From the IMG/VR virus record IMGVR_UViG_3300046655_001278, positions 62,001 to 126,000 of that record: DNA of 64,000 nucleotides; one strand, 5' to 3'. Made by a program: the position numbers and the translations under genes. The notes under the pieces were generated by a model that saw only the letters and a program-made list of their open reading frames with translations, searched no databases and was not told the DNA's origin. Below, piece after piece: positions 1,726 through 62,025 of the stretch (its first letter is position 1; each line of letters begins with the position of its first letter). The DNA is from a virus.

Positions 1726-2343
1726 TTATAACGAATCCCACTTCGGTGGAGTTAATGGACACTTACTGCTAGTGAGTAGTAATTTGCCACTTCCACATCC
1801 ACACTTCATGCATTTAGCAACGTTGGTATTTTTATTTTCCGACCAAAAAGAACATGATCTGCATATCGTAAGACGAGTTTCCCATTGTTTCGCATTGACA
1901 ACAGGTCTTCCACTTTTAGTCCATGCTAATAATGATTGTGCTAAATTAGAGGGCATATCCTTAAATCCTAAATTTTTTGCGGTAGTAACTTGAAACTCTT
2001 CACGACTCATAGATTCTTTGTTATTATTTGAATCATTATTATCAGTTTTAACATCTTTGTTTTCTATGTGTGGTTGCTCAACAACCTTAGATTCTTCACT
2101 TCTCTGAATGGCATCTTGTCTACTACTTTCTAACATTGCTCTAAGTTCTTCTGCCTTCTTGACTTCACTTTCATTATTTTCTTTTACTTCGGTTGTATTA
2201 AATACTGATTTGTCTTGATCGTTTGAATTATCTTCTATTTGACCTCCTGGTTCAAATCCTTTATTTATATACAAACTGTGAACTTCTTCAAATGTAGATT
2301 TGATTACACCCCTCTTTTTATATCTTTGATAATATTTTGCCAT
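1726..2343 (-). CDS. Zn-ribbon protein with acidic/Asn-rich linker
   Basis: This 205-residue protein has three parts. A basic N-terminus (MAKYYQRYKKRG) is followed by a low-complexity E/N/D/K-rich middle (about residues 35-110) and a C-terminal cysteine cluster. The cysteines are C161-x2-C164, C178-x2-C181, C183 and C195, which would bind one zinc ion in a ribbon fold. Before the cluster, a helix ending LLAWTKSGRPVVNAKQWETRL leads into ICRSCSFW. Similar C-terminal Zn-ribbons occur in uncharacterised proteins of aquatic T4-like phages. No enzymatic motif is visible. A nucleic-acid or protein-binding role is plausible but is inference. Confidence 0.6.
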   Translation of the reverse strand: MAKYYQRYKKRGVIKSTFEEVHSLYINKGFEPGGQIEDNSNDQDKSVFNTTEVKENNESEVKKAEELRAMLESSRQDAIQRSEESKVVEQPHIENKDVKTDNNDSNNNKESMSREEFQVTTAKNLGFKDMPSNLAQSLLAWTKSGRPVVNAKQWETRLTICRSCSFWSENKNTNVAKCMKCGCGSGKLLLTSSKCPLTPPKWDSL

Positions 2344-2385
2344 AACGTTTTAAAATTAATTGTACACTAAATACTTATATAAGAG

Positions 2386-2700
2386 ATGGAAGAAAAAATA
2401 CTAAAAATTCCAAGTGACAACAAATTACTTGAAGATGACCTCAAAAAAGATATAAAAAAGTATATAGACCAAATCTTCATCAGGTTTACTGAGGACATAA
2501 CTATTAACCATATACCCGATAGCATTAAGTTGTTTTCTTTTGATAATACTGAATTACAAGTCATTGTTAAAAAAGCAAGTTATATAGCAAATATAGAAAA
2601 TGCAATCAAAAAATACACGGAGGAAGAAGAGTATGAAAAATGTGCAAAACTGTTAAACCTAATAGACATAATAAATAAAAATAGAAATATAAATACTTAA
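2386..2700 (+). CDS. Small protein with UVR-motif-like C-terminus
   Basis: This is a 104-residue mostly helical, charged protein. The C-terminal segment (ENAIKKYTEEEEYEKCAKLL and onward, about residues 73-98) resembles the UVR coiled-coil motif of UvrB and UvrC in its spacing of Ala, acidic and Leu/Ile residues. That motif mediates UvrB-UvrC contact. No other domain is present. It is the first plus-strand gene, divergent from the Zn-ribbon gene with 42 bases between them, and is followed by phoH 40 bases later. The function is unknown and the UVR resemblance is a pattern match only. Confidence 0.5.
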   Translation: MEEKILKIPSDNKLLEDDLKKDIKKYIDQIFIRFTEDITINHIPDSIKLFSFDNTELQVIVKKASYIANIENAIKKYTEEEEYEKCAKLLNLIDIINKNRNINT

Positions 2701-2740
2701 GCCGCTATAGTCGCTTTATAAACTACAAGGAGAAAAACTG

Positions 2741-3484
2741 ATGTCAAGGAAAAAGCACAAAGATATTACAAAAAGTATTATTACAGATACTCAACTTCAA
2801 GAAATAATAAGAACTAACGAAGAGATTAGAAAGTTAAAAATAACCCATAAACCATTCACAGACAATCAGAAAAAATTTTTAGATGTTGGTTTAAATGAAT
2901 CAACAAAATTAATGTTTGTTAACGGTCCTGCTGGAAGTGCGAAAACATATATCAGCATATATTGTGGATTGCAATTTTTTAACAATAATGTAATAGAAGA
3001 ACTCGTTTATATAAGAAATGCAGTTGAAAGTTCAGATCACAAATTAGGTTTTTTACCAGGAGCACAAGACGATAAAATGGCTCCGTACTTAGAACCAATG
3101 AAAGATAAACTAGAAGAATTTTTAGATATAGTAGATATAAAATACTTACAGGAAGAAGAACGCATTTATGGACTTCCGGTTGGATACTTACGTGGTGCGT
3201 CTTGGGAAAACAAGTGTGTAATCGTAGATGAAGCACAGAACATGACAGAAAAAGAACTAATCACGATAATGACACGTGTCGGTGAAAATTGTAAATTGTT
3301 TATTTGTGGTGATAATATGCAAAGTGACATTGGCAACAAATCGGGTTTTACAAATATTAAAAGACTTTTTGCTGATGAAGAATCTAAAAACCAAGGCATT
3401 TATAGTTTTGATTTCACAGAAGATGACATAATTAGAAGTGAATTGGTTAAATTTATAGTTAAACGAATAAAAAGTTTAAAATAG
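2741..3484 (+). CDS. phoH: PhoH-like P-loop ATPase
   Basis: This 247-residue protein has the compact PhoH core. Walker A is GPAGSAKT (62-69), then comes VYIRNAVESSDHKLGFLPG (about 89-107, typical of PhoH), and Walker B is IVDEAQNMT (161-169) followed by a helicase-like CGDNMQSDI segment. PhoH-family ATPases are widespread in marine phages. They are often linked to phosphate stress or RNA metabolism, but their role in infection is unproven. There is no fused nuclease (PIN) domain. The ATG at 2741 has a good Shine-Dalgarno sequence (AAGGAGA about 8 bases upstream), unlike many genes here. There is no other gene between its stop and the structural gene at 3549. Confidence 0.93.
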   Translation: MSRKKHKDITKSIITDTQLQEIIRTNEEIRKLKITHKPFTDNQKKFLDVGLNESTKLMFVNGPAGSAKTYISIYCGLQFFNNNVIEELVYIRNAVESSDHKLGFLPGAQDDKMAPYLEPMKDKLEEFLDIVDIKYLQEEERIYGLPVGYLRGASWENKCVIVDEAQNMTEKELITIMTRVGENCKLFICGDNMQSDIGNKSGFTNIKRLFADEESKNQGIYSFDFTEDDIIRSELVKFIVKRIKSLK

Positions 3485-35452: not shown

Positions 35453-38400
35453 ATGATTAAGAGTTTAAAGGTTTCTGATAAAACTGTAAGAAAGTTTAAA
35501 TCTAGCAAGAGTTGGAAACACTCTACCATCGACTCATTGACGAATTTAGTATTAGAACAAACACAGAATAACGGTCGTCAAGTGAAAATTCAGTTGGATG
35601 ATAACCTTGGACTTGCAACGGAGCAAAACAATAATACAACTGATATAAAAATAAAGTATGGAAAAAACACAACTGGCACGTTCTATCCAGTTACTCATAA
35701 AAACTATAATTCAGAATATGAAAAAGTAAACTACGATGGTTCTTATTATAGAAATGTGTATAATTCAGTTAAGCATTTATTTTATAATGATTACGGAATT
35801 TATACAAACGATGAAGATATAAAAAACCCACTGATGGTGTTTGGTTCGGAAACTGGTCAGTATAAGATAGAAAGTAGTGACTCAAATTCATTTGGTGATG
35901 TTCAAAATAATTACGAAAGAAGAATTATTCGTGATGAAATGTTAGTCATTGAAATTGCTAAGAAAAACTTTGGTGAAAAAATAAAACCAAACTCTTTTAA
36001 AATACGAGATTTTTCATCACCACATGGAGTAATTGAAATAATTGATGATGGTGCAACCAATTTAATGATAAGTGAGAACTCTTTTAATGAGATTAAAGAA
36101 GTTAAAAGATCAAAATCAAAAAAATTAAATAAAGAGGATTACGATGAAAAACTAAATTCATCAGATATGCTAGTTGGAAAAAAACTTGCATCTGATGGGG
36201 ATTATATACTTGCTGGTGTTCCCATGAATCAAGATTCACCAAGTGATCTATTAACAGGTAGTGCATCGTTATTCAGATACGACACAGAAACAAAAGAATT
36301 TAGAAGTGTGCGAGAATTTATGTGTCCTTTCACTCAACAAGGGTTGATAAATGAATCAAAATTAAATTCAAATAGTTTCTTAGTAACTGAATTGGGTGAA
36401 ATTCTATCGGGTAAAAACTATTCAATAAATGATAAGTTTGGAGAATCGGTTGAATTGAAAAATGGAACTTGTGCAATCGGTTCACCTGAGTCACATATAC
36501 ACGGTGTATGTAACGATGCCCGACAAGGTCATGTATTTTTGTATGATGTTGACAAAGGAGGTTCTGAAAATTGGGGTTTAACCGAAATATTAGAGGGTGA
36601 TCCTGGTTCTGAATTTGGTTCTTCTATTTCAATACATGGAAAATACATGGCAGTGGGTTCACCTGGTGCTTACAAGGGTAAGGGTGCTATATACATTTTT
36701 GAAAAAACTATTAGAAACAAAACGTCTCCTTGGTGGAGAATATCAGATGCACACTCTGACTTTTGCTATAATGAGATGTCAAAAACTCACCGTGGCATTC
36801 CTGTGTGTGATAAATTAAAAGAGTTAAACGAATCTGCGTATCGTTGGAAAATAAAAACTGCGTCACCTGAGAATTATGGTTTAACTTATTTTGGTACAAC
36901 GGAAGATGATGTATGTGAGCTAAATCAAATTGGTACTTTTGAAGATGATGATGAAGTTTCATCTTTTGGGTTTGAAACATCATTTCCAGTTTCACATTAT
37001 CATAAATTTGATAAGGAGCGACGTACACCTGAGTATGGAGAGGGTGATATTACGTGGAATTTGGTGGCAATAGTCAAAAGTGATAAAGTAAATCGCCTCG
37101 GTGAAAATATTAAATTGTATGACGATTTGTTAGTTTCAACATCACCAACATCTGATCATAAAAAGGCAGTTGTGTTTAAGAAATATAAATCAGATGATGG
37201 TTGTTTTTTATGGAAGCATACTCATTCTTTGCATAAAAACTTTATCTATAATTATGATTTTGAAAGTGTAAATATTTCTAAATATTTTAATGATATAAGA
37301 TTCAATCTTGAAGATGACACTATCACAATAGAGGTTGATGTGAAGCAAGTGGCCGAATCTACTGATGTAGGTTTTATATATAGATTTGACAAACTATTTG
37401 GGGAAGGAAAAGATGCATTTAACAGTAGACTTTTACATGGTGGTGAGGTAGTAAAATCAAATAAATTTAAACTTACTGATGTTCCTCCTGGAGAACATAA
37501 AATTTATATAGGTAGATATATTGATAAATATTTAGTTGGCATTCCTTCGGTCATATCATTTTCAATAAATCCTCATGTACAGGAAGTGGAGGAACGACCA
37601 CCTCAAGTTAAATACCCATATCAATATTTTTCAAATAAATATACAAACTATGGAGTATCACTTGAAACAAATGGCAAATATATTCTCATAGGTGATGACA
37701 ATGACAGAGTATATGTTGATACAGATTTAGAATTGACAAAGGGAGTATCATATTCATCGGGATCGGTATGGGTTTATGAAATTGAAAAAAATAGTATTTC
37801 CTACTTACAAAAATTATATGAAATAGAAGATGAAGAACGAAGATTCAATAACAGATTTGGATGTTCTGTGTCAATGATTGGTAACGACTTTATTGTAGGA
37901 TCGCCTTGTACAGATGAAAGTAAAATAATATTAGAAAATAAAGGGTTAGATGTTAAAATACCAGATTATGAACTTGGGGTAGAAAACTATGAAGAAGATT
38001 TTTATAATGTTCATCAATCATTGTTTACTTCATTTACATATGAATTTATAGGAGACGGTGACATTGATATGTTAATTTATATTGATGTAAAGGATTTAGT
38101 TGATATTAATTTGGAAAATATAACTGACTTTGAATTAAATGCTTCTTTCATATTTTCCGACAAAAATTATATAGATACTAACAATGGTGAACTTACCCGT
38201 GGTATTTACAAAAATAAAAACTACTTAACTGATAACAAAGTTTGCTTTGCAGTAAAAACAATTTCACACTTATTTGATCCAAATGAAAAAATTGAATTTT
38301 CATATTCAATAAAACGCAATAGTATACAAGGTACAACCACTTATTTTAGAATTGGTGAAAATAACAAAATAGAATCCCTTAAAAATATAAAAAGTGTAAA

Positions 38401-39565
38401 ACAAAAGAATAAAGTAAAAACAAGTTATGGAATTGATGTATCATTAAGTTCTACAAGAATTTATGTAGGGAATTCAATAATAGGTGATTGGCCGGTGGAT
38501 CAAATAACTGGATTTGATAACACAGAGATTGTATCATTTGATGATTGCTCTCACATTTATTCAAACCGAGGAGACATAATTTGGGGTAACTTGGAAAAGA
38601 ATGACTTGATTCTAGAAGGTTCAATACTTGCGTATGATGTCAAAACAATACGGGATGGTGGTAGGGTTTACGTGGGCAATGTGTTTTACAAAAACGGCAT
38701 TGCTGTAATATCAGAATTATCTGAGTATTATGAAAATCTTCTAAAATTTGGTGGTCGCACAGGATATGAAATTACATTTGATAGTATTAATAGCATTTAT
38801 GAAAATGAAATTTTGTGTAAAGTAAATCCACACGAATTTAACGCAAGTACAAATCCAACTTCCATCATTGAGTCAAATATTGCATTTGATGTAAATGGAG
38901 ATGGAAAGTTTGACATAATTGATTTATCGTTTATTTATCGTTACATACTCGGTTCTTTCAGAAGAGCACAGGTTGATGATTCAGAAACAGGTGAATTATC
39001 AAATACTCTTGTACTAGAGCAAAACTCTAACTGGCCAAATGAAGATGTATTGATGAGTGAGTCGGAAGATGCATTATTTATAAATGTATTACAAAATCTT
39101 ACAAGTGACATGAATTTAAGTAAGTCGGAGGAACTTAGAATTTTGGATAAACTAGATCAATTAAACTCACTAAAAGAAAATGGATTGGATATAGATGGTG
39201 ATGGTGTTGTATCGGCTAATGATGCAAAACTACTAGCAAGATACTTTGTAGGAAGGCAAGGCAAAGCACTTACAAGTGGCATAATAAATCCATTAAACTC
39301 TACCGCAATTCGTAAGAACGCATTTGAAATTGTACAATATCTAGACGAAAAAACTGGAAAATACAGTGGCAGGGAAATTATAAAAGACTTTTTAGATTAT
39401 GAAAAAAATGATCTTAATGATAAAAAAGGTAGTTATCTCGCACCATACGCAACAACGATTGGTTTATATGATGGAAACGATTTGGTAATGGTTGCTAAAT
39501 TAGCAAAACCAGTAAAAATCATACCAAACTACCCAATAAATTTTTTGATAAAATACGATGTTTAA
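35453..39565 (+). CDS. 1370-residue structural protein with FG-GAP-like repeats and a dockerin-like pair
   Basis: The N-terminus (about 1-240) carries a phage structural segment (GTFYPVTHKNYNSEYEKVNY, RRIIRDEMLVIEIAKKNFGE). Then come FG-GAP/beta-propeller-like repeats in which NxxFGxSV-type strands alternate with IVGSP: FGESVELKNGTCAIGSPESH, FGSSISIHGKYMAVGSPGAY, YGVSLETNGKYILIGDDND, FGCSVSMIGNDFIVGSPCTD and YGIDVSLSSTRIYVGNS. Near residues 1145-1167 and 1245-1267 are two calcium-loop segments, DVNGDGKFDIIDLSFIYRYI and DIDGDGVVSANDAKLLARYF, which match type I dockerin repeats. The end TTIGLYDGNDLVMVAKL is shared with the upstream protein. A receptor-binding or neck role is likely; calcium-dependent docking is inference. 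Confidence 0.75.
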   Translation: MIKSLKVSDKTVRKFKSSKSWKHSTIDSLTNLVLEQTQNNGRQVKIQLDDNLGLATEQNNNTTDIKIKYGKNTTGTFYPVTHKNYNSEYEKVNYDGSYYRNVYNSVKHLFYNDYGIYTNDEDIKNPLMVFGSETGQYKIESSDSNSFGDVQNNYERRIIRDEMLVIEIAKKNFGEKIKPNSFKIRDFSSPHGVIEIIDDGATNLMISENSFNEIKEVKRSKSKKLNKEDYDEKLNSSDMLVGKKLASDGDYILAGVPMNQDSPSDLLTGSASLFRYDTETKEFRSVREFMCPFTQQGLINESKLNSNSFLVTELGEILSGKNYSINDKFGESVELKNGTCAIGSPESHIHGVCNDARQGHVFLYDVDKGGSENWGLTEILEGDPGSEFGSSISIHGKYMAVGSPGAYKGKGAIYIFEKTIRNKTSPWWRISDAHSDFCYNEMSKTHRGIPVCDKLKELNESAYRWKIKTASPENYGLTYFGTTEDDVCELNQIGTFEDDDEVSSFGFETSFPVSHYHKFDKERRTPEYGEGDITWNLVAIVKSDKVNRLGENIKLYDDLLVSTSPTSDHKKAVVFKKYKSDDGCFLWKHTHSLHKNFIYNYDFESVNISKYFNDIRFNLEDDTITIEVDVKQVAESTDVGFIYRFDKLFGEGKDAFNSRLLHGGEVVKSNKFKLTDVPPGEHKIYIGRYIDKYLVGIPSVISFSINPHVQEVEERPPQVKYPYQYFSNKYTNYGVSLETNGKYILIGDDNDRVYVDTDLELTKGVSYSSGSVWVYEIEKNSISYLQKLYEIEDEERRFNNRFGCSVSMIGNDFIVGSPCTDESKIILENKGLDVKIPDYELGVENYEEDFYNVHQSLFTSFTYEFIGDGDIDMLIYIDVKDLVDINLENITDFELNASFIFSDKNYIDTNNGELTRGIYKNKNYLTDNKVCFAVKTISHLFDPNEKIEFSYSIKRNSIQGTTTYFRIGENNKIESLKNIKSVKQKNKVKTSYGIDVSLSSTRIYVGNSIIGDWPVDQITGFDNTEIVSFDDCSHIYSNRGDIIWGNLEKNDLILEGSILAYDVKTIRDGGRVYVGNVFYKNGIAVISELSEYYENLLKFGGRTGYEITFDSINSIYENEILCKVNPHEFNASTNPTSIIESNIAFDVNGDGKFDIIDLSFIYRYILGSFRRAQVDDSETGELSNTLVLEQNSNWPNEDVLMSESEDALFINVLQNLTSDMNLSKSEELRILDKLDQLNSLKENGLDIDGDGVVSANDAKLLARYFVGRQGKALTSGIINPLNSTAIRKNAFEIVQYLDEKTGKYSGREIIKDFLDYEKNDLNDKKGSYLAPYATTIGLYDGNDLVMVAKLAKPVKIIPNYPINFLIKYDV

Positions 39566-40251: not shown

Positions 40252-40779
40252 ATGCCAAAAAACAAATTATGTCTCGGACTGGATTTAAGTTCTACTACGG
40301 TTGGTTATTGTTTTTCATCATCTTCAACTGATATTTTAAAAGCAGGATTCATTCCAGTTCATAAAGAAATCTCCATTAGAAGTAAAGCACATAAGGTTGC
40401 AGAGGAATTGAAAAATATTCAACTGCAACCTTTTGTTGTTATTGTAGAAGATTCGTTAAGTGGATTTGGTGGTGGGAGAACAAGTCAGCAGACTATTGTA
40501 AAATTAGCAAAGTGTAATGCCATAATAAGTTATGTTGTAGAAGAGTTGTATAATATAGAAGTACAACATATAAATGTATCTACCATGCGTAAAGCAGTAT
40601 TTGGAAAAAGCAGAGAAAAAGGATTAGATAGTAAAACATTTGTAAAGTGCAATCTTGAAAATATGCTTGATTTATCCGACTTTATTCACTATAATTCTAA
40701 GAATAATTATGATAAAAAAAACTATGATATGCTTGATGCCGTAGTCGCATCTTTGTATTATTGGTATTCTTTAAAATAG
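40252..40779 (+). CDS. RuvC-like Holliday-junction resolvase
   Basis: The protein has 175 residues, the size of RuvC. It shows the RNase-H-fold acidic residues in order: D11 in LGLDLSSTTVGY, E66 in VVIVEDSLSG and D159/D162 in NYDMLDAVVASLYY. A GGRTSQQTIVKLAKCNAIIS helix lies between them and HINVSTMRKAVFGKSR after E66. RuvC-like enzymes cut four-way junctions. T4 uses an unrelated endonuclease VII (gp49) for this step, so this phage has a different resolvase, unless gp49 lies outside the window. It is the first gene of a replication/recombination operon and shares one base with the primase start. Confidence 0.8.
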   Translation: MPKNKLCLGLDLSSTTVGYCFSSSSTDILKAGFIPVHKEISIRSKAHKVAEELKNIQLQPFVVIVEDSLSGFGGGRTSQQTIVKLAKCNAIISYVVEELYNIEVQHINVSTMRKAVFGKSREKGLDSKTFVKCNLENMLDLSDFIHYNSKNNYDKKNYDMLDAVVASLYYWYSLK

Positions 40780-41708
40780 TGGGCATCTCTGAACAAAAAC
40801 TTCTCAATCTTCTGCAAAAAGTATTAGGAGCTGGAAAAATCGTCTCTAAAGACGAGGCTATGTTTTTGTGTCCATTTTCCCATCATAGAAAACCCAAACT
40901 TGCGATTAATTTATCCACACAAAGATGGCAAAGTTGGATTGATACAAATGCAAAGGGAAGATCAATCTATGGTTTATTCAAAAAGATGAATGTTGCTCCG
41001 CAATATCTTACAGAACTTTCAAGAATTGTAAAGATACCCAAAAGTACGCAACAAAGTGAAGAAGAACAAATTAAAATTCATCTTCCATACGAATTTACCT
41101 CATTGCGGTATGATACTGAAAAAACGAGATCATCAAAGGCTGCGTTTAATTATCTAAGACAAAGAAACATATTTTCTTATGATATAGAAAGATATAATAT
41201 TGGATATTGCGAAAGTGGTGATTATGCGAATAGAATCATAGTACCATCATATGATTGCGACAATAATTTAAATTATTTTATAGCAAGAGATTTTACCGGA
41301 ACTGCGTATTTACGATACAAAAATCCACCAGTCAGTAAAGATGTTGTGGTGTTTGAGAATCAAATTGATTTCTCCGAACCACTTATTTTTTGTGAAGGTG
41401 TATTTGATGCTATGGCAATTCGTCGAAATGCAATTCCACTATTGGGGAAGAATATTCCAAGTAAACTAAAAACAAAATTAGTTGAACATGGAGTTTCTGA
41501 AATATGCATTGTTCTTGATAACGATGCATTTAAAAACGCATTACAAATTTCCGAAACATTGATGAACGAGAATGTTCGTGTCAAATTAGTAAAAATGGGA
41601 AATGACGATGCGGCGGACATTGGGTTTAATAAAATAATTCATAAAATTAGAAATGCAGAACTTCTTGATTTTAGTGAATTGATGAAGCAAAAGTTATGCA
41701 TGAACTAA
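40779..41708 (+). CDS. 61: DNA primase (DnaG/gp61-type, TOPRIM)
   Basis: The protein has 309 residues. The start is a GTG (40779) sharing its G with the upstream TAG; a TTG at 40761 inside the resolvase gene is less likely. The N-terminal zinc-binding region has CPFSHHRKPKLAINL (about residues 29-43), with fewer Cys than the CHC2 standard. The TOPRIM domain has FCEGVFDAMAI (about 206-216) and VLDNDAF (about 247-253), which carry the catalytic Glu and Asp-x-Asp. Primases make RNA primers for lagging-strand synthesis with the gp41-like helicase, which is not seen here. It is followed by the gp47-like nuclease with a 13-base overlap. Confidence 0.88.
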   Translation: MGISEQKLLNLLQKVLGAGKIVSKDEAMFLCPFSHHRKPKLAINLSTQRWQSWIDTNAKGRSIYGLFKKMNVAPQYLTELSRIVKIPKSTQQSEEEQIKIHLPYEFTSLRYDTEKTRSSKAAFNYLRQRNIFSYDIERYNIGYCESGDYANRIIVPSYDCDNNLNYFIARDFTGTAYLRYKNPPVSKDVVVFENQIDFSEPLIFCEGVFDAMAIRRNAIPLLGKNIPSKLKTKLVEHGVSEICIVLDNDAFKNALQISETLMNENVRVKLVKMGNDDAADIGFNKIIHKIRNAELLDFSELMKQKLCMN

Positions 41709-42400
41709 AAACAAATTTAAAGAACGTTGAAAAAGTATATCATCTCGCAGACATTCATATAAGAAACGTAAAAAGACACAACGAATATTCATTGGTATTT
41801 GAAAACTTTTACAAACAAGTAAAAGAAGATAATCTTGATAACGCAATTATTTTTATTGGTGGAGACATTGCTCATGCCAAAACAGAAATGAGTCCAGAGT
41901 TGATTCATCAAATATCTTCATTTTTAAGAGAGTGTTCTAAACTTCATCCAACGATTGTTATTGCTGGTAACCACGATTGTAATTTAAACAATCCTGATCG
42001 TCTTGATGTATTGTCTCCTATTATGGACATGATGGATGATGACAATTTATTTTATTTAAAAGATAGTGGTGCATATAAAATAGGTGATGTCGCAATTGGT
42101 GTATTTGGTATTTTTGATGATCCCAACGAATATGTACGTGGAACTGATATAACAGATAAATCTATTAATACAAAGATTGCAGTTTATCATGGTGCAGTAA
42201 AAAGAAGCAGAACTGATGTTGGTTATGTTGTTATGGGAGGTGACATTGAGTTGCCTATGTTCAATGGATATGATATAGTCATGTTGGGTGATATCCACAA
42301 ATATCAAACACTACAAGAATACCAAACAGAGCATAGATTTATACCCGAATCTAAAGTTGATGAATATAAACTAGAAGGATGGGAACTTGCAGATGTCTAA
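41696..42400 (+). CDS. 47: gp47/SbcD-like nuclease, catalytic half only (split gene)
   Basis: The protein has 234 residues, against about 340 for T4 gp47. All metallophosphatase motifs are present: HLADIHI (DxH), FIGGDIAH (GD), IVIAGNHDCN (GNHD), IAVYHGAV (H) and MLGDIHKYQ (the GxH block). Homology stops at LQEYQ (residue 210). It is replaced by 24 residues (beginning TEHRFIPESKVDEY) unlike the family, then a stop. The missing cap domain reappears at residue 17 of the protein at 43315. The Mre11/SbcD nuclease acts with the Rad50/SbcC ATPase on DNA ends in recombination-dependent replication. Whether the half is active with the C-part in trans is unknown. Confidence 0.85.
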   Translation: MHELKTNLKNVEKVYHLADIHIRNVKRHNEYSLVFENFYKQVKEDNLDNAIIFIGGDIAHAKTEMSPELIHQISSFLRECSKLHPTIVIAGNHDCNLNNPDRLDVLSPIMDMMDDDNLFYLKDSGAYKIGDVAIGVFGIFDDPNEYVRGTDITDKSINTKIAVYHGAVKRSRTDVGYVVMGGDIELPMFNGYDIVMLGDIHKYQTLQEYQTEHRFIPESKVDEYKLEGWELADV

Positions 42401-43362
42401 ACGATTTTTAATAAAGTGCAACCACATTCACATTGGTGATATTTTATTTGCAAGCAGTGTTGCAAAAAAATTAAATGAAGAACAAGGACCGTGTTCTGTC
42501 CATTTCTCAGTAAATTACTTGCAACCGATTGAGTTGCTCAATAATAATCCTTACATTGATAAAGTCTTTTTTAATGAAAGTTTCGGAACATACGATGAAG
42601 TTTTCAATTTAATCGGAGACACAGACACACTAAATCCATATGAATCTGCGGTATCTCAATTTCAAAGAATGTGTAATATAAAAAACTTCGATGATACCTT
42701 TGAAATTTATACAAACCCTTCTTTAGATTATTCAATTAGTGAAAGTTTTCGTGAACTTGTTAAAATAGGAGATTGGCCAAACTCATTAATTAAAGTAGGT
42801 TATCAGTGTGACTGGGATAAAAAAAGTTTTTTATTTACCGAAGAACAATACGAACGTGCTGAACACGGAGAAGACGGAACAGGATATGGTGATGGTTCTC
42901 GTAATGTATACGATATTATCAATTGTCTAGAAATTAATTCTAATATTATGTTATTTGCGTTGGGTCTTGATGATAAAATTTCAAAAAGATATCCTGCTAT
43001 CAATTCAACTAGCAAATTTACTTTTACTGCAAGTTTAATTAAGAATTGTGATTTTGTTATAGGAGCAGAGGGGTGTCTAACAAACATATCATCTGCGTTG
43101 GGTGTGAAAACAATAATTACCACAGATTACATACACCAAATGTTTGGACCCAAAGGAATTAAATGGCAACAAGAAGGTGGTGATTTAAATAACCTAGAAT
43201 GTCGTAAACCTTTTTTAGGACCTTGTAATTATTTTCCGAAAGCAGATCACATCCACCTCAATCCATATCTCACCGATCAACAAGTTGGAGAAGAAATTTT
43301 AAAAGTAGTTACACATGGAAGATAAAGAGAGTTACGTAAAAATAAAAAGACACAACGGTCAG
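42326..43362 (+). other. Insertion that splits the gp47-gp46 reading frame
   Basis: The segment from after LQEYQ of the nuclease half to before KPVVVYSGSMIQQ of the ATPase half has no counterpart in gp47 proteins. It contains a short new tail, a complete glycosyltransferase-like gene, and a new 16-residue start for the downstream part. The three reading frames lie in frames 2, 0 and 1 with overlaps of 8 and 11 bases, so no continuous or intein frame exists. No recognisable intron core or inverted terminal repeat was seen. Confidence 0.6.
42393..43325 (+). CDS. GT9/heptosyltransferase-like protein inserted in gp47
   Basis: This protein has 310 residues from the ATG at 42393; a TTG at 42387 is less likely. 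The N-terminus has FLIKCNHIHIGDILFASSVA (about residues 4-23), like the HxGD(x)(l)xtP loop of heptosyltransferases. The C-terminal half has FTASLIKNCDFVIGAEGCLT (about 214-233) and NISSALGVKTIITTDY, the place where GT9 enzymes have the (D)SGxxHxAxAxG nucleotide-sugar site. Here Cys-Leu-Thr-Asn-Ile-Ser replaces the usual motif, so activity is uncertain. It overlaps the nuclease half by 8 bases and the downstream gene by 11. A mobile or cargo role is inference. It is the fourth glycosyltransferase-like gene of the window. Confidence 0.7.
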   Translation: MSKRFLIKCNHIHIGDILFASSVAKKLNEEQGPCSVHFSVNYLQPIELLNNNPYIDKVFFNESFGTYDEVFNLIGDTDTLNPYESAVSQFQRMCNIKNFDDTFEIYTNPSLDYSISESFRELVKIGDWPNSLIKVGYQCDWDKKSFLFTEEQYERAEHGEDGTGYGDGSRNVYDIINCLEINSNIMLFALGLDDKISKRYPAINSTSKFTFTASLIKNCDFVIGAEGCLTNISSALGVKTIITTDYIHQMFGPKGIKWQQEGGDLNNLECRKPFLGPCNYFPKADHIHLNPYLTDQQVGEEILKVVTHGR

Positions 43363-45915
43363 AAACCAGTTGTAGTGTATTCGGGAAGCATGATTCAACA
43401 AAATCATGGTGAAAAACCATTTGGTCATGGTTATGTTTTGTGGGACCTGAAATCACGTACACATAAGCACACAGAAGTATTCAATGAATATGGATATTAT
43501 ACCATTGAAGTAAGAGATGGAAAGTGTGTAAGTGACTTGGATAAACTTCCCACGAAAGCAAGATTGCGGGTAAAAGTATTTAACACAACTGCAACTGAAA
43601 CTAAAGAAATAATTGCAGAGATACGAAAGAAAACAAGCATAACTGACTTAAATGTCACACGGTGCGATGCAATATCTGAAGCAAAAAAGTTTGATCGTGA
43701 CAATAAGTTTGATTTTGGTGACATATCACTTGTACAAGTACAAAATGACTTAATAGAAGATTATCTTCGCAGAAATTTTGTTGTTGATGATGACCAAGTA
43801 AAAACTGCTCTTGATATTAATAAAGAAATCAACGATAAACTTGTAGTAAAAGAAGTTCTTCGTAATTGCATCTGGAAACCAAAGAAGTTTGAATTCTCAA
43901 ATATGTTTAGTTACGGTGATGGTAACATTGTAGATTTTTCAAATATGAAAAGTGTCATGGGATTGTTTGCTTCAAATGCAAGTGGAAAAAGCAGTGTAAT
44001 GAGTGCATTGAGTTTTTGTTTGTTTGATAAATGTGATCGTGCTTTTAAGGCATCCCATGTTTTAAACACACAAACTGATTCATTTTATTGTAAACTAAAT
44101 TTTGAAATAGGTGGAGTAGATTATTTTATTGACCGTCAAGCAACAACAAAGAAGAACGGTGACGTAACTGTCGTGGTAGACTTCTGGAAGCATGATATCG
44201 ATGGTAACACAATATCGTTAAACGGAGAACAGAGGGCTGGGACAAATGCTATAATTCGTGATCATGTGGGTTCGTATGATGACTTTGTTTTGACTACATT
44301 AAGTTTGCAAAATAATAATGCAATTTTTATAGATAAAAGTCAAAGTGAACGAAAAGATTTACTTGCACAATTTATGGGCATAGATACATTTGATCAATTA
44401 CACTCTACTGCTTCCGAAGACATTAAAGAAATAAATGCTTTACTTAAAAGATTTAATCGTGACGATTTTGATGAAACTCTTGCAGATGTAAAAGAAAAAC
44501 TTGATAGAATAAATGAAGAGTATAATCAACAAGATAGTAAGACTAATGTAGCATTACTTGAACAGAAAAGATTAAATAAAGAATTGGCTGATAAAAATTC
44601 ATTATTTAAAAATTGTTCGTTTGATGAAACCGCAGTTGATATTGATAAATTAGAATTTAATAAAAATAATTTAAAAGAAAGACTTGAAATAGCAAAAGAT
44701 AATCGTTCGGATGAATCCACAAGAAAGAAAAGTTTAACATTAGAAAAGAAAAATTGCTCACAACAAATATCCGAACTAAAAGGTACAGAAGAAAAGTATA
44801 TAAGTGTATTAAAAGTTCGTGAAGATATTACAAAAGTAGAAAAAGATTTGGCCGTACTGAGAACATCAGTTAATGCTAAGTTAGATAAATTAAAACATTA
44901 TGATAGTCATCAATATGACCCAAAGTGTAAGTTTTGTGTTAACAATTCTAAAAATCTTATTGAAAGTGCAGAGCAAACTAAAACTGAACTTGATAAAGAC
45001 AAAGCAGCGGCGGACGAGTTGGTAAAACAAAAAACTATTTTTAGTGATATACTTGAAGATAATAAAGATGTAGAATCCAATTATGAATTGCTAAAAGATT
45101 TAAATAATAAATCTAATCAACTTGTGTTTGAAATAAACGAAGCAGATTCTAAAGTTCTTGCTTTGTCTAGTATGATTGAATCTCTTGAAAAAGATATTGT
45201 TTTAAATGATAAAAATATTAAAGAATATTATGAGTGCAAAGACATAATTGAGTTTAATAAAAATATACAAAAAGAAGTTGGTGAATTAAATTTAAAATTA
45301 AATTCTGTAAATAAAATTGCAAATGATGAAAGTGAAAAACTTCAAACACTTTTCGGTGAAGTTAAAATTGTAGAAAAAGAGCATGATGATGTAATCTCTT
45401 CAATTGAAGAAGCAAAAAGTTATGAAAGAAAAAAACGAGGATACGAGTTGTATCTCGATGCTGTCAAACGAGATGGTATATCATACGAACTTATTTCCAA
45501 AACTATTCCAAGTATTGAAAGTGAAGTAAATAATATACTTTCTCAGATTGTTGATTTTGGTATGAATCTTGAAATGGACGGAAAACATATTTACTCAAAA
45601 ATAACCTACGAGGATCGGCATTGGCCATTAGAGATGTGTAGTGGTATGGAACGATTCATAAGCAGTATTGCTATGCGTGTAGCACTTATTAATGTAAGTA
45701 GTCTTCCTCGTTCTAATTTCCTTGTTATTGACGAGGGGTGGGGTACATTAGACGGAGACAATATTAGTAGTGTATTTAACTTATTTACTTATCTAAAAGG
45801 TCAGTTTGAGTTTATCGTGGTCATTAGTCACTTGGATGTTATGCGAGATATGGTGGATGAAATTGTAGAAATTCAAAGAGAAGGTTCATTTAGTAAGATA
45901 AATTACGGAGCATAA
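43315..45915 (+). CDS. 46: gp47 cap domain fused to gp46/SbcC-like ATPase
   Basis: The protein has 866 residues. Residues 17-160 (KPVVVYSGSMIQQNHGEKPF, then YGYYTIEVRDGK) are the missing C-terminal cap of gp47. Residues ~190-866 are an SbcC/Rad50-like ATPase. Its N-terminal lobe EFSNMFSYGDGNIVDFSNMK leads to Walker A ASNASGKSS (219-227), and a long coiled coil (about 350-760) has a zinc hook CKFC (538-541) at its middle. The C-terminal lobe has signature MCSGMERFISS, Walker B LVIDEGW (803-809) and HLDVMRD. The fusion of cap and ATPase suggests that an ancestral one-chain gp47-gp46 was cut by the inserted gene. It closes the replication operon. Confidence 0.88.
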   Translation: MEDKESYVKIKRHNGQKPVVVYSGSMIQQNHGEKPFGHGYVLWDLKSRTHKHTEVFNEYGYYTIEVRDGKCVSDLDKLPTKARLRVKVFNTTATETKEIIAEIRKKTSITDLNVTRCDAISEAKKFDRDNKFDFGDISLVQVQNDLIEDYLRRNFVVDDDQVKTALDINKEINDKLVVKEVLRNCIWKPKKFEFSNMFSYGDGNIVDFSNMKSVMGLFASNASGKSSVMSALSFCLFDKCDRAFKASHVLNTQTDSFYCKLNFEIGGVDYFIDRQATTKKNGDVTVVVDFWKHDIDGNTISLNGEQRAGTNAIIRDHVGSYDDFVLTTLSLQNNNAIFIDKSQSERKDLLAQFMGIDTFDQLHSTASEDIKEINALLKRFNRDDFDETLADVKEKLDRINEEYNQQDSKTNVALLEQKRLNKELADKNSLFKNCSFDETAVDIDKLEFNKNNLKERLEIAKDNRSDESTRKKSLTLEKKNCSQQISELKGTEEKYISVLKVREDITKVEKDLAVLRTSVNAKLDKLKHYDSHQYDPKCKFCVNNSKNLIESAEQTKTELDKDKAAADELVKQKTIFSDILEDNKDVESNYELLKDLNNKSNQLVFEINEADSKVLALSSMIESLEKDIVLNDKNIKEYYECKDIIEFNKNIQKEVGELNLKLNSVNKIANDESEKLQTLFGEVKIVEKEHDDVISSIEEAKSYERKKRGYELYLDAVKRDGISYELISKTIPSIESEVNNILSQIVDFGMNLEMDGKHIYSKITYEDRHWPLEMCSGMERFISSIAMRVALINVSSLPRSNFLVIDEGWGTLDGDNISSVFNLFTYLKGQFEFIVVISHLDVMRDMVDEIVEIQREGSFSKINYGA

Positions 45916-45958: not shown

Positions 45959-47002
45959 ATGGAAAATTCCGAAAAAAATCAAAAAGTCCAAGAAACCCTG
46001 ATTAAAGCAGGATTGCGTAAAGGATACTTTACACTTGTAGAGGGTGTGTATGATCCTGGTATTTTAAAAGCAGTATTTCTAGCAGGAGGTCCTGGTTCGG
46101 GTAAATCTGCTACGGTTGATACATTATTCAATTTTCCACCAGATGCGGCTAATTTATCACCAAGTGGATTGAAGATTGTTAATAGTGATCCTGCATTTGA
46201 GATATTACTTAAAAAAGCAGGATATGATCTGAATCTATCTAAAATGGATGATGAAACATTTGCCAAAGTAACAAGTGACGATCCAAATAGTATTCGTTCC
46301 CGTGCGAAGAAAATTATGCTTAAACAATTTGAGTTATTTAAAGATGGTCGTTTGGGTATTATCGTAGATGGAACTGGTGATAATTATAACAAAATATCAA
46401 AGCAAAAGAAAGAACTTGAAAAACTTGGATACGATTGTTATATGGTATTTGTAAATACAACATTAGATGTGGCACAACAAAGAAACGCAATGCGTAAAAG
46501 AAAACTTCCACGAAAAATAGTAAAAGATATTTGGACAGATGTACAAAAAAATCTTGGTAAGTTTCAAGGTTTGTTCAAAGCAAATTTCGTTATAGTAGAC
46601 AATTCAGAAGATACTCGCAGTAAAACAAAACCTGGTAGATTAGATTTAGTTCCACGGTTAATGAAAGAAGTTGCAAGATTTATATCCAAACCAATTAAAA
46701 ATCCAATTGGAAAGAAATGGATTAAAATGATGATGGCACATGATAAAATGAGTAAAAGTGGTGATAAACGAAATCGTGTTACAGAAGAACTTGATTTAGT
46801 AAAGATGGAAGATGTTGTTCTTCCTATGGATTTAGAGAGACACTTAAGTCGTTCTATTCACGTAATTAAAAAATTTAATTTAAATGAAAGAAAGAATTTA
46901 GCAGTATTAACACGATTAGTGGAGAGTTTACAACTTAGCAGAAATCAGTTAGTAAAGTATTTTCATAAAATCCGTACCATGAAATTCAAAGGAGAAGATT
47001 GA
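45959..47002 (+). CDS. P-loop kinase, zeta-toxin/polynucleotide-kinase-like
   Basis: This protein has 347 residues. Walker A is GGPGSGKSA (43-51), preceded by AVFLA. A second acidic strand IIVDGTGDNYNKISKQ lies about residues 133-148. The Arg-rich lid QQRNAMRKRKLPRKIVKDIW (about 177-196) precedes NFVIVDNSED. This fits the AAA_33/zeta-toxin-type kinases, a group that includes 5'-hydroxyl polynucleotide kinases and UDP-sugar kinases. The C-terminal ~110 residues are helical and basic, without a recognised fold. It is placed a few genes before the NMNAT-ligase fusion, so a healing role on nucleic-acid ends is a reasonable guess, but the substrate cannot be told from sequence. Confidence 0.72.
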   Translation: MENSEKNQKVQETLIKAGLRKGYFTLVEGVYDPGILKAVFLAGGPGSGKSATVDTLFNFPPDAANLSPSGLKIVNSDPAFEILLKKAGYDLNLSKMDDETFAKVTSDDPNSIRSRAKKIMLKQFELFKDGRLGIIVDGTGDNYNKISKQKKELEKLGYDCYMVFVNTTLDVAQQRNAMRKRKLPRKIVKDIWTDVQKNLGKFQGLFKANFVIVDNSEDTRSKTKPGRLDLVPRLMKEVARFISKPIKNPIGKKWIKMMMAHDKMSKSGDKRNRVTEELDLVKMEDVVLPMDLERHLSRSIHVIKKFNLNERKNLAVLTRLVESLQLSRNQLVKYFHKIRTMKFKGED

Positions 47003-61948: not shown

Positions 61949-62025
61949 AACTAAAAAAAGGTTTTAATTATTTGAAGTCCTATTAAAATGACTTTATCAA
62001 ACTAATCTATAAAGGATAATTAACC

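Follow-up and report, generated by a model that had tools for sequence, protein, structure and literature searches.

The window analyzed here is a stretch of 64,000 nucleotides (positions 62,001 to 126,000 of IMG/VR record IMGVR_UViG_3300046655_001278), and the record containing it is viral and 130.6 kb long. At the locus under study, three consecutive open reading frames (ORFs) occupy three different frames and overlap by 8 and 11 nucleotides (nt), respectively (Table 1), confirming the layout and coordinates given in a preliminary description of this DNA. We refer to the three ORFs as piece 1, the insert, and piece 2. Piece 1 carries the metallophosphoesterase motifs DxH, GD, GNHD, YHG, and GDIH, all of which are invariant or nearly so across fused relatives (i.e., those in which the nuclease and Rad50 domains share one reading frame, as they do not in the window itself), and the model of one fused relative, L067, matched an Mre11-type fold. 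Classical Mre11 proteins carry GHxH where this phage family carries GDIH. Piece 2 bears the hallmarks of Rad50/SbcC-gp46 proteins, namely, Walker A and Walker B motifs, a signature motif, and a CxxC zinc hook, and Rad50 structures matched a fused relative upon structure comparison. The nuclease is preceded by a primase-like gene in the window and, likewise, in L001, L002, and L128.

Table 1. Coordinates of genes and predicted features at the split nuclease locus (window positions)
Feature	Position	Strand	Details
Primase/Toprim-like gene, 5' of piece 1	40761..41708	+	Weak Toprim and DnaG matches; 13-nt overlap with piece 1
Piece 1, Mre11-like	41696-42400	+	234 aa; Metallophos PF00149, E 2e-8
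Mre11/gp47-like phosphoesterase core, residues 1-209	41696..42322	+	PF00149, E 2e-8; phrog_100 SbcD-like, E 3e-17
Piece 1 novel C-terminal tail	42323..42397	+	25 aa; same length in all marine split loci; none in fused relatives
Insert, GT9-like gene	42393-43325	+	310 aa; ATG start (mechanical TTG start, 42387)
Piece 2, cap and Rad50	43315-45915	+	866 aa; SbcC-like phrog_77, E 8e-41
Piece 2 novel N-terminal tail, MEDKESYVKIKRHNGQ	43315..43362	+	16 aa; mostly conserved as Y[VI]K[VI]xRxN
Phosphoesterase core, predicted final three strands, KPVVVYSGSMIQQNHGE..., on piece 2	43363..43476	+	Mapped from the fused L067 model
Nuclease capping domain (approximate boundaries)	43477..43872	+	Mapped from the L067 model and alignment
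Rad50/gp46-like ATPase with coiled coil (approximate start)	43873..45915	+	phrog_77, E 8e-41
Walker A motif ASNASGKS	43969..43992	+	From sequence
Zinc-hook CxxC (CKFC)	44926..44937	+	Both Cys invariant in 12 relatives

Fused and split relatives

Relatives of the locus were drawn from viral contigs, annotated phages, and genome contigs. The nuclease and Rad50 parts lie in one frame at 199 loci (163 distinct sequences), including those of Microcystis phage Mel-JY01, in which the fused protein is a single annotated CDS of 1,066 aa, and of a 735-kb phage. The split form was recovered at 40 loci (30 distinct sequences) from many assemblies, and the identical layout of these loci rules out chance or assembly error. 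All split loci except one contain the glycosyltransferase (GT)-like gene, and the GT-split form occurs on 37 contigs besides the window's own record, some of which represent near-identical populations. The arrangement is a conserved state of an entire clade and not a peculiarity of the window's genome. The preliminary description had proposed that an ancestral single-chain gp47-gp46 protein was cut by the insert and had suggested that uninterrupted relatives be sought; these were found many times over, and in our trees the marine GT-split clade is nested among them, which bears out the proposal. Together, these data show that one chain is the ancestral form in this phage family and that, in the marine clade, a gene lodged in a nuclease-core loop has divided it into two chains with separate coding sequences.

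Most fused loci have 51 to 81 nt between GDIH and the SGS motif, and L287 and L288 have the longest junction loops measured (81 nt). In L128, the primase-like gene and the fused nuclease are separated by an extra 380-aa gene with no family assigned (positions 2255-3397). In L337, a Flavobacteriaceae MAG contig (positions 1427-2170), the nuclease and the start of the cap are in frame and a stop follows shortly afterwards.

Position of the break

Similarity between the window proteins and the fused relatives extends as far as LQEY (piece 1, residue 209) and restarts at KPVVVY (piece 2, residue 17); a loop whose length varies is present at this site in the fused relatives. The loss of homology after LQEY, downstream of the catalytic motifs, had been noticed in the preliminary description and was upheld by alignment to fused relatives. 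For the L067 nuclease and cap, the model (mean pLDDT 90) resembles Mre11 structures (3qg5, E 3e-13), and the break maps between its strands 207-210 and 220-223. More specifically, L067 strands 220-223, 240-245, and 250-255 precede the capping domain and correspond to residues 17-54 of piece 2 (~38 residues), and the metal-binding motifs are all on piece 1. According to this model, the break is within the phosphoesterase core and not at a domain border. The earlier placement of resumed homology at residue 17 of piece 2 was correct, but the resumed part had been taken to be the cap only, with the break ahead of it, whereas residues 17-54 are predicted to form the last three core strands. Since piece 2 would carry these strands, a complete core would need two-chain assembly.

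Integrity and selection of the split genes

In each marine split locus checked, piece 1 consists of exactly 209 + 25 aa, the insert is intact, and the leader before the conserved part of piece 2 measures 18 to 19 codons, and the ORF overlaps are retained in all marine-clade split loci. Pooled pN/pS values for close pairs were 0.11-0.17 (nuclease), 0.10 (Rad50), and 0.32 (GT). For the tails, which comprise few codons, the corresponding values were 0.25-0.28 (C-terminal tail, overlap excluded) and 0.18 (N-terminal tail). All parts of the locus are intact and, as judged from these values, under purifying selection, tails included. Neither half had a second copy in 8 split records of 77 to 170 kb (one Metallophos match and one Rad50 match in each; these records are possibly fragments), and no second Metallophos gene was detected in the window's own 131-kb record. 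No Shine-Dalgarno motif was found 5' of piece 2 in the 11 loci checked, which, together with the overlaps, suggests that piece 2 is translated by coupling.

The inserted gene

The AlphaFold2 model of the insert (pLDDT 78) had as its best Foldseek matches the GT9 structure 3tov (E 1.6e-9), WaaF (1psw), and WaaC (2h1h), and no nuclease fold was seen in it. By sequence, the sole hint was again 3tov, around the GD motif (E 0.14), and a Pfam search gave only a sub-threshold DUF354 match and no GT9 family match. The predicted fold supports the preliminary assignment of the insert as GT9-like, with a putative GT-B fold nearest to GT9 members, the heptosyltransferases. It is like WaaC, WaaF, and 3tov in predicted fold and in its N-terminal GD motif, but differs from them in having ~10% identity, no GT9 Pfam match, and an occurrence restricted to the nuclease slot. 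In a profile scan for GT relatives, 37 of 37 sit in this slot, and none were found in phage records or in the genome scan.

The GT gene recombines as a cassette between lineages. The pair L005 and L029 shares 97% (nuclease) and 93% (Rad50) identity and only 59% in the GT; at the DNA level, their identity drops from ~95% to 45-73% through the greater part of the GT and rises again where piece 2 begins. The opposite pattern was observed for L026 and L038 versus L008, L013, and L036, which are ~67-72% identical in the flanks and 79-80% identical in the GT. Both flank trees were rejected by the GT alignment. The nuclease and Rad50 segments of the marine split loci also reject each other's trees, so recombination in the marine group is not confined to the insert; given this conflict, the break region of these loci is also a recombination boundary.

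An independent split in huge phage LR756508.1

In LR756508.1 (L001), a huge phage of 484 kb, a gene encoding 305 aa interrupts the equivalent protein, again at this loop. The product of this gene contains a TnsA-like nuclease domain just over the Pfam cutoff (27.2 versus 26.5 bits) and matches an HNH-endonuclease PHROG. Its nuclease part is also similar to a Bacillus phage Moonbeam protein annotated as a NUMOD3 endonuclease. The gene is homing-endonuclease-like. An analogy with the nrdA gene of Aeromonas phage Aeh1, drawn in the preliminary description, proved apt, and an independent lineage has such a gene in the same loop. L001 clusters with the fused L144 and L145, apart from the marine clade. 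The trees call for two separate split lineages: a single split event common to the marine clade and L001 was tested, as one split clade, and rejected (AU test, P = 0.005; lnL difference, 65).

The C-terminal tail of L001 piece 1, EVEEMVVEEDELEKYLNSGWKL, aligns to the marine tails in register and without gaps. The mean BLOSUM62 score of this alignment was 38, as against -17 (standard deviation, 10) for shuffles and at most 21 for natural 22-mers; scores this high were reached by 0 of 20,000 shuffles and 0 of 61,080 natural 22-mers. A profile HMM built from the marine tails scored the L001 tail at only -0.9 bits, and similarity between the N-terminal tails of L001 and the marine clade was not significant (P = 0.06). 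Nothing convincing resembling the tail motif was found elsewhere in 3.3 Mb of loci or in phage records, and an Rfam scan of L001 for introns gave nothing relevant. Most simply, related elements would have entered this site on two occasions, bringing the tail-coding segment; the L001 and marine tails may alternatively be convergent.

Discussion

We regard it as highly probable that the window locus encodes a genes-in-pieces Mre11-Rad50 nuclease, the slot of which now holds a GT cassette. The two chains would fold together, with all metal-binding motifs coming from piece 1 and the final strands of the core coming from piece 2, along with the cap and the Rad50 ATPase. The novel tails may serve as docking or capping segments, and recombination-nuclease function would be retained by the two-chain assembly.

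Among the alternatives, the one that fares best, though still improbable, is that the GT-like protein works with the nuclease as a third partner (a subunit, a regulator, or a DNA-modifying sugar transferase) for which the split was selected. The restriction of this GT family to the slot, where it is always intact and overlaps both pieces, would fit such a role, but the GT evolves fast and has been replaced between lineages independently of its flanks, and a different gene occupies the slot in LR756508.1.

It is very unlikely that the protein is made whole by an intron, a split intein, or two programmed frameshifts. An HN pair close to the end of the N-terminal tail resembles an intein C terminus, and the frame advances by +1 from the nuclease to the insert and again from the insert to the cap. 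However, the His and Asn of that tail vary, the residue following them is not limited to C, S, or T, no intein N-block is present, and the 25- and 16-aa tails lack intein blocks or splice residues. No Rfam match at E ≤ 1, and with it no group I or II catalytic core, was detected in the window, and the ORF that occupies the insert leaves no space for a ribozyme. No slippery site is evident, and a double shift would embed the GT in the chain. The preliminary description, which had excluded an intein and deemed an intron unlikely, is in line with the Rfam scan, the frames, and the residues, none of which favor either. Equally hard to sustain is the proposal that piece 1 is a decaying remnant, with only the cap-Rad50 chain in use, or that nuclease activity has been lost. 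The cut does fall in the catalytic domain itself, but all motifs are kept, the length of piece 1 is constant across the marine split loci examined, and its pN/pS is like that of Rad50. The least credible alternative is reversed polarity, in which the split is ancestral and the fused forms are later joins: T4 gp47/gp46 and cellular SbcD/SbcC are indeed separate genes (PMC3175470), but these meet at the Mre11/Rad50 border and not within the nuclease core, the two split lineages hold separate positions among fused ones, and fusion is also seen in the distant L003 and Mel-JY01.

Precedents for genes in pieces are nrdA of Aeromonas phage Aeh1 (mobE), T4 topoisomerase gene 60 (mobA), and phage 25 gene 43A/43B (PMC2988022). 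As in the window, a gene that is continuous in relatives is cut in these phages at a functionally critical region into separately translated pieces, splicing is not involved, and the pieces are presumed or shown to reassemble. The precedents differ from the window in that their inserts are endonucleases, whereas the window has a GT as its insert and a recombination nuclease as its target; moreover, the window state is fixed across a clade, its insert has been exchanged, and the same loop is cut in another lineage as well. The homing-endonuclease feature of genes in pieces is thus absent from the window insert, the only endonuclease-like insert being that of LR756508.1. To our knowledge, the phage genes-in-pieces cases known so far have endonuclease inserts. 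Fractured genes with split inteins, reportedly described by Dassa and colleagues in 2009, are said to have a gene that separates the two parts of a broken phage gene; the window differs from these in lacking intein segments and any sign of protein splicing.

Mre11 and Rad50 are known to occur as single-chain fusions (Mimivirus R555 and others), with homologs in marine viral metagenomes (PMC3175470). They combine an N-terminal Mre11-like part and a C-terminal Rad50-like part in one chain, and the fused relatives described here are of the same kind, whereas an internal cut has done away with the single chain in the window and its clade. The terms split and fission do not occur in that report (PMC3175470). 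What is new here is a cut, predicted to run through the folded core of a recombination nuclease, that is fixed in a clade and filled by a swappable non-endonuclease gene; an unrelated lineage also has a cut at this loop, accompanied by a matching tail. It can now be tested whether proteins broken by mobile elements are rescued by docking tails that these elements provide and whether broken genes turn into cargo slots, and the predicted natural two-chain Mre11 is on offer for studies of split-enzyme assembly.

As to history, we consider it an evenly balanced proposition that a homing-endonuclease element with a tail-coding segment made the first opening in the loop and that the GT later replaced the endonuclease in the marine clade. 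No endonuclease was found in the slot of any marine locus, so that for this clade the endonuclease-first order rests on one distant phage, and no GIY-YIG endonuclease was found in the window's own record. More tentatively, the loop could be a recurrent cargo slot, in which a homing-type element supplies short tails through which the broken protein docks and functions in two-chain form, and which outlives the endonuclease to hold exchangeable cargo. If so, it would offer a non-splicing, harmless entry route into an essential gene.

Several other genes of this virus were recorded in passing. An HNH endonuclease-like gene lies elsewhere in the same record, outside the window (G000:C1:39123-39257 [L339]; E 1e-15). 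Immediately 3' of the Rad50 piece is a zeta-toxin/AAA-like kinase gene (window positions 45959-47002; PF06414, E 3e-11), and window positions 35453-39565 encode a 1,370-aa protein that combines FG-GAP repeats (PF14312, E 7e-14) with a type I dockerin (PF00404, E 7e-9), which is unusual in a phage.
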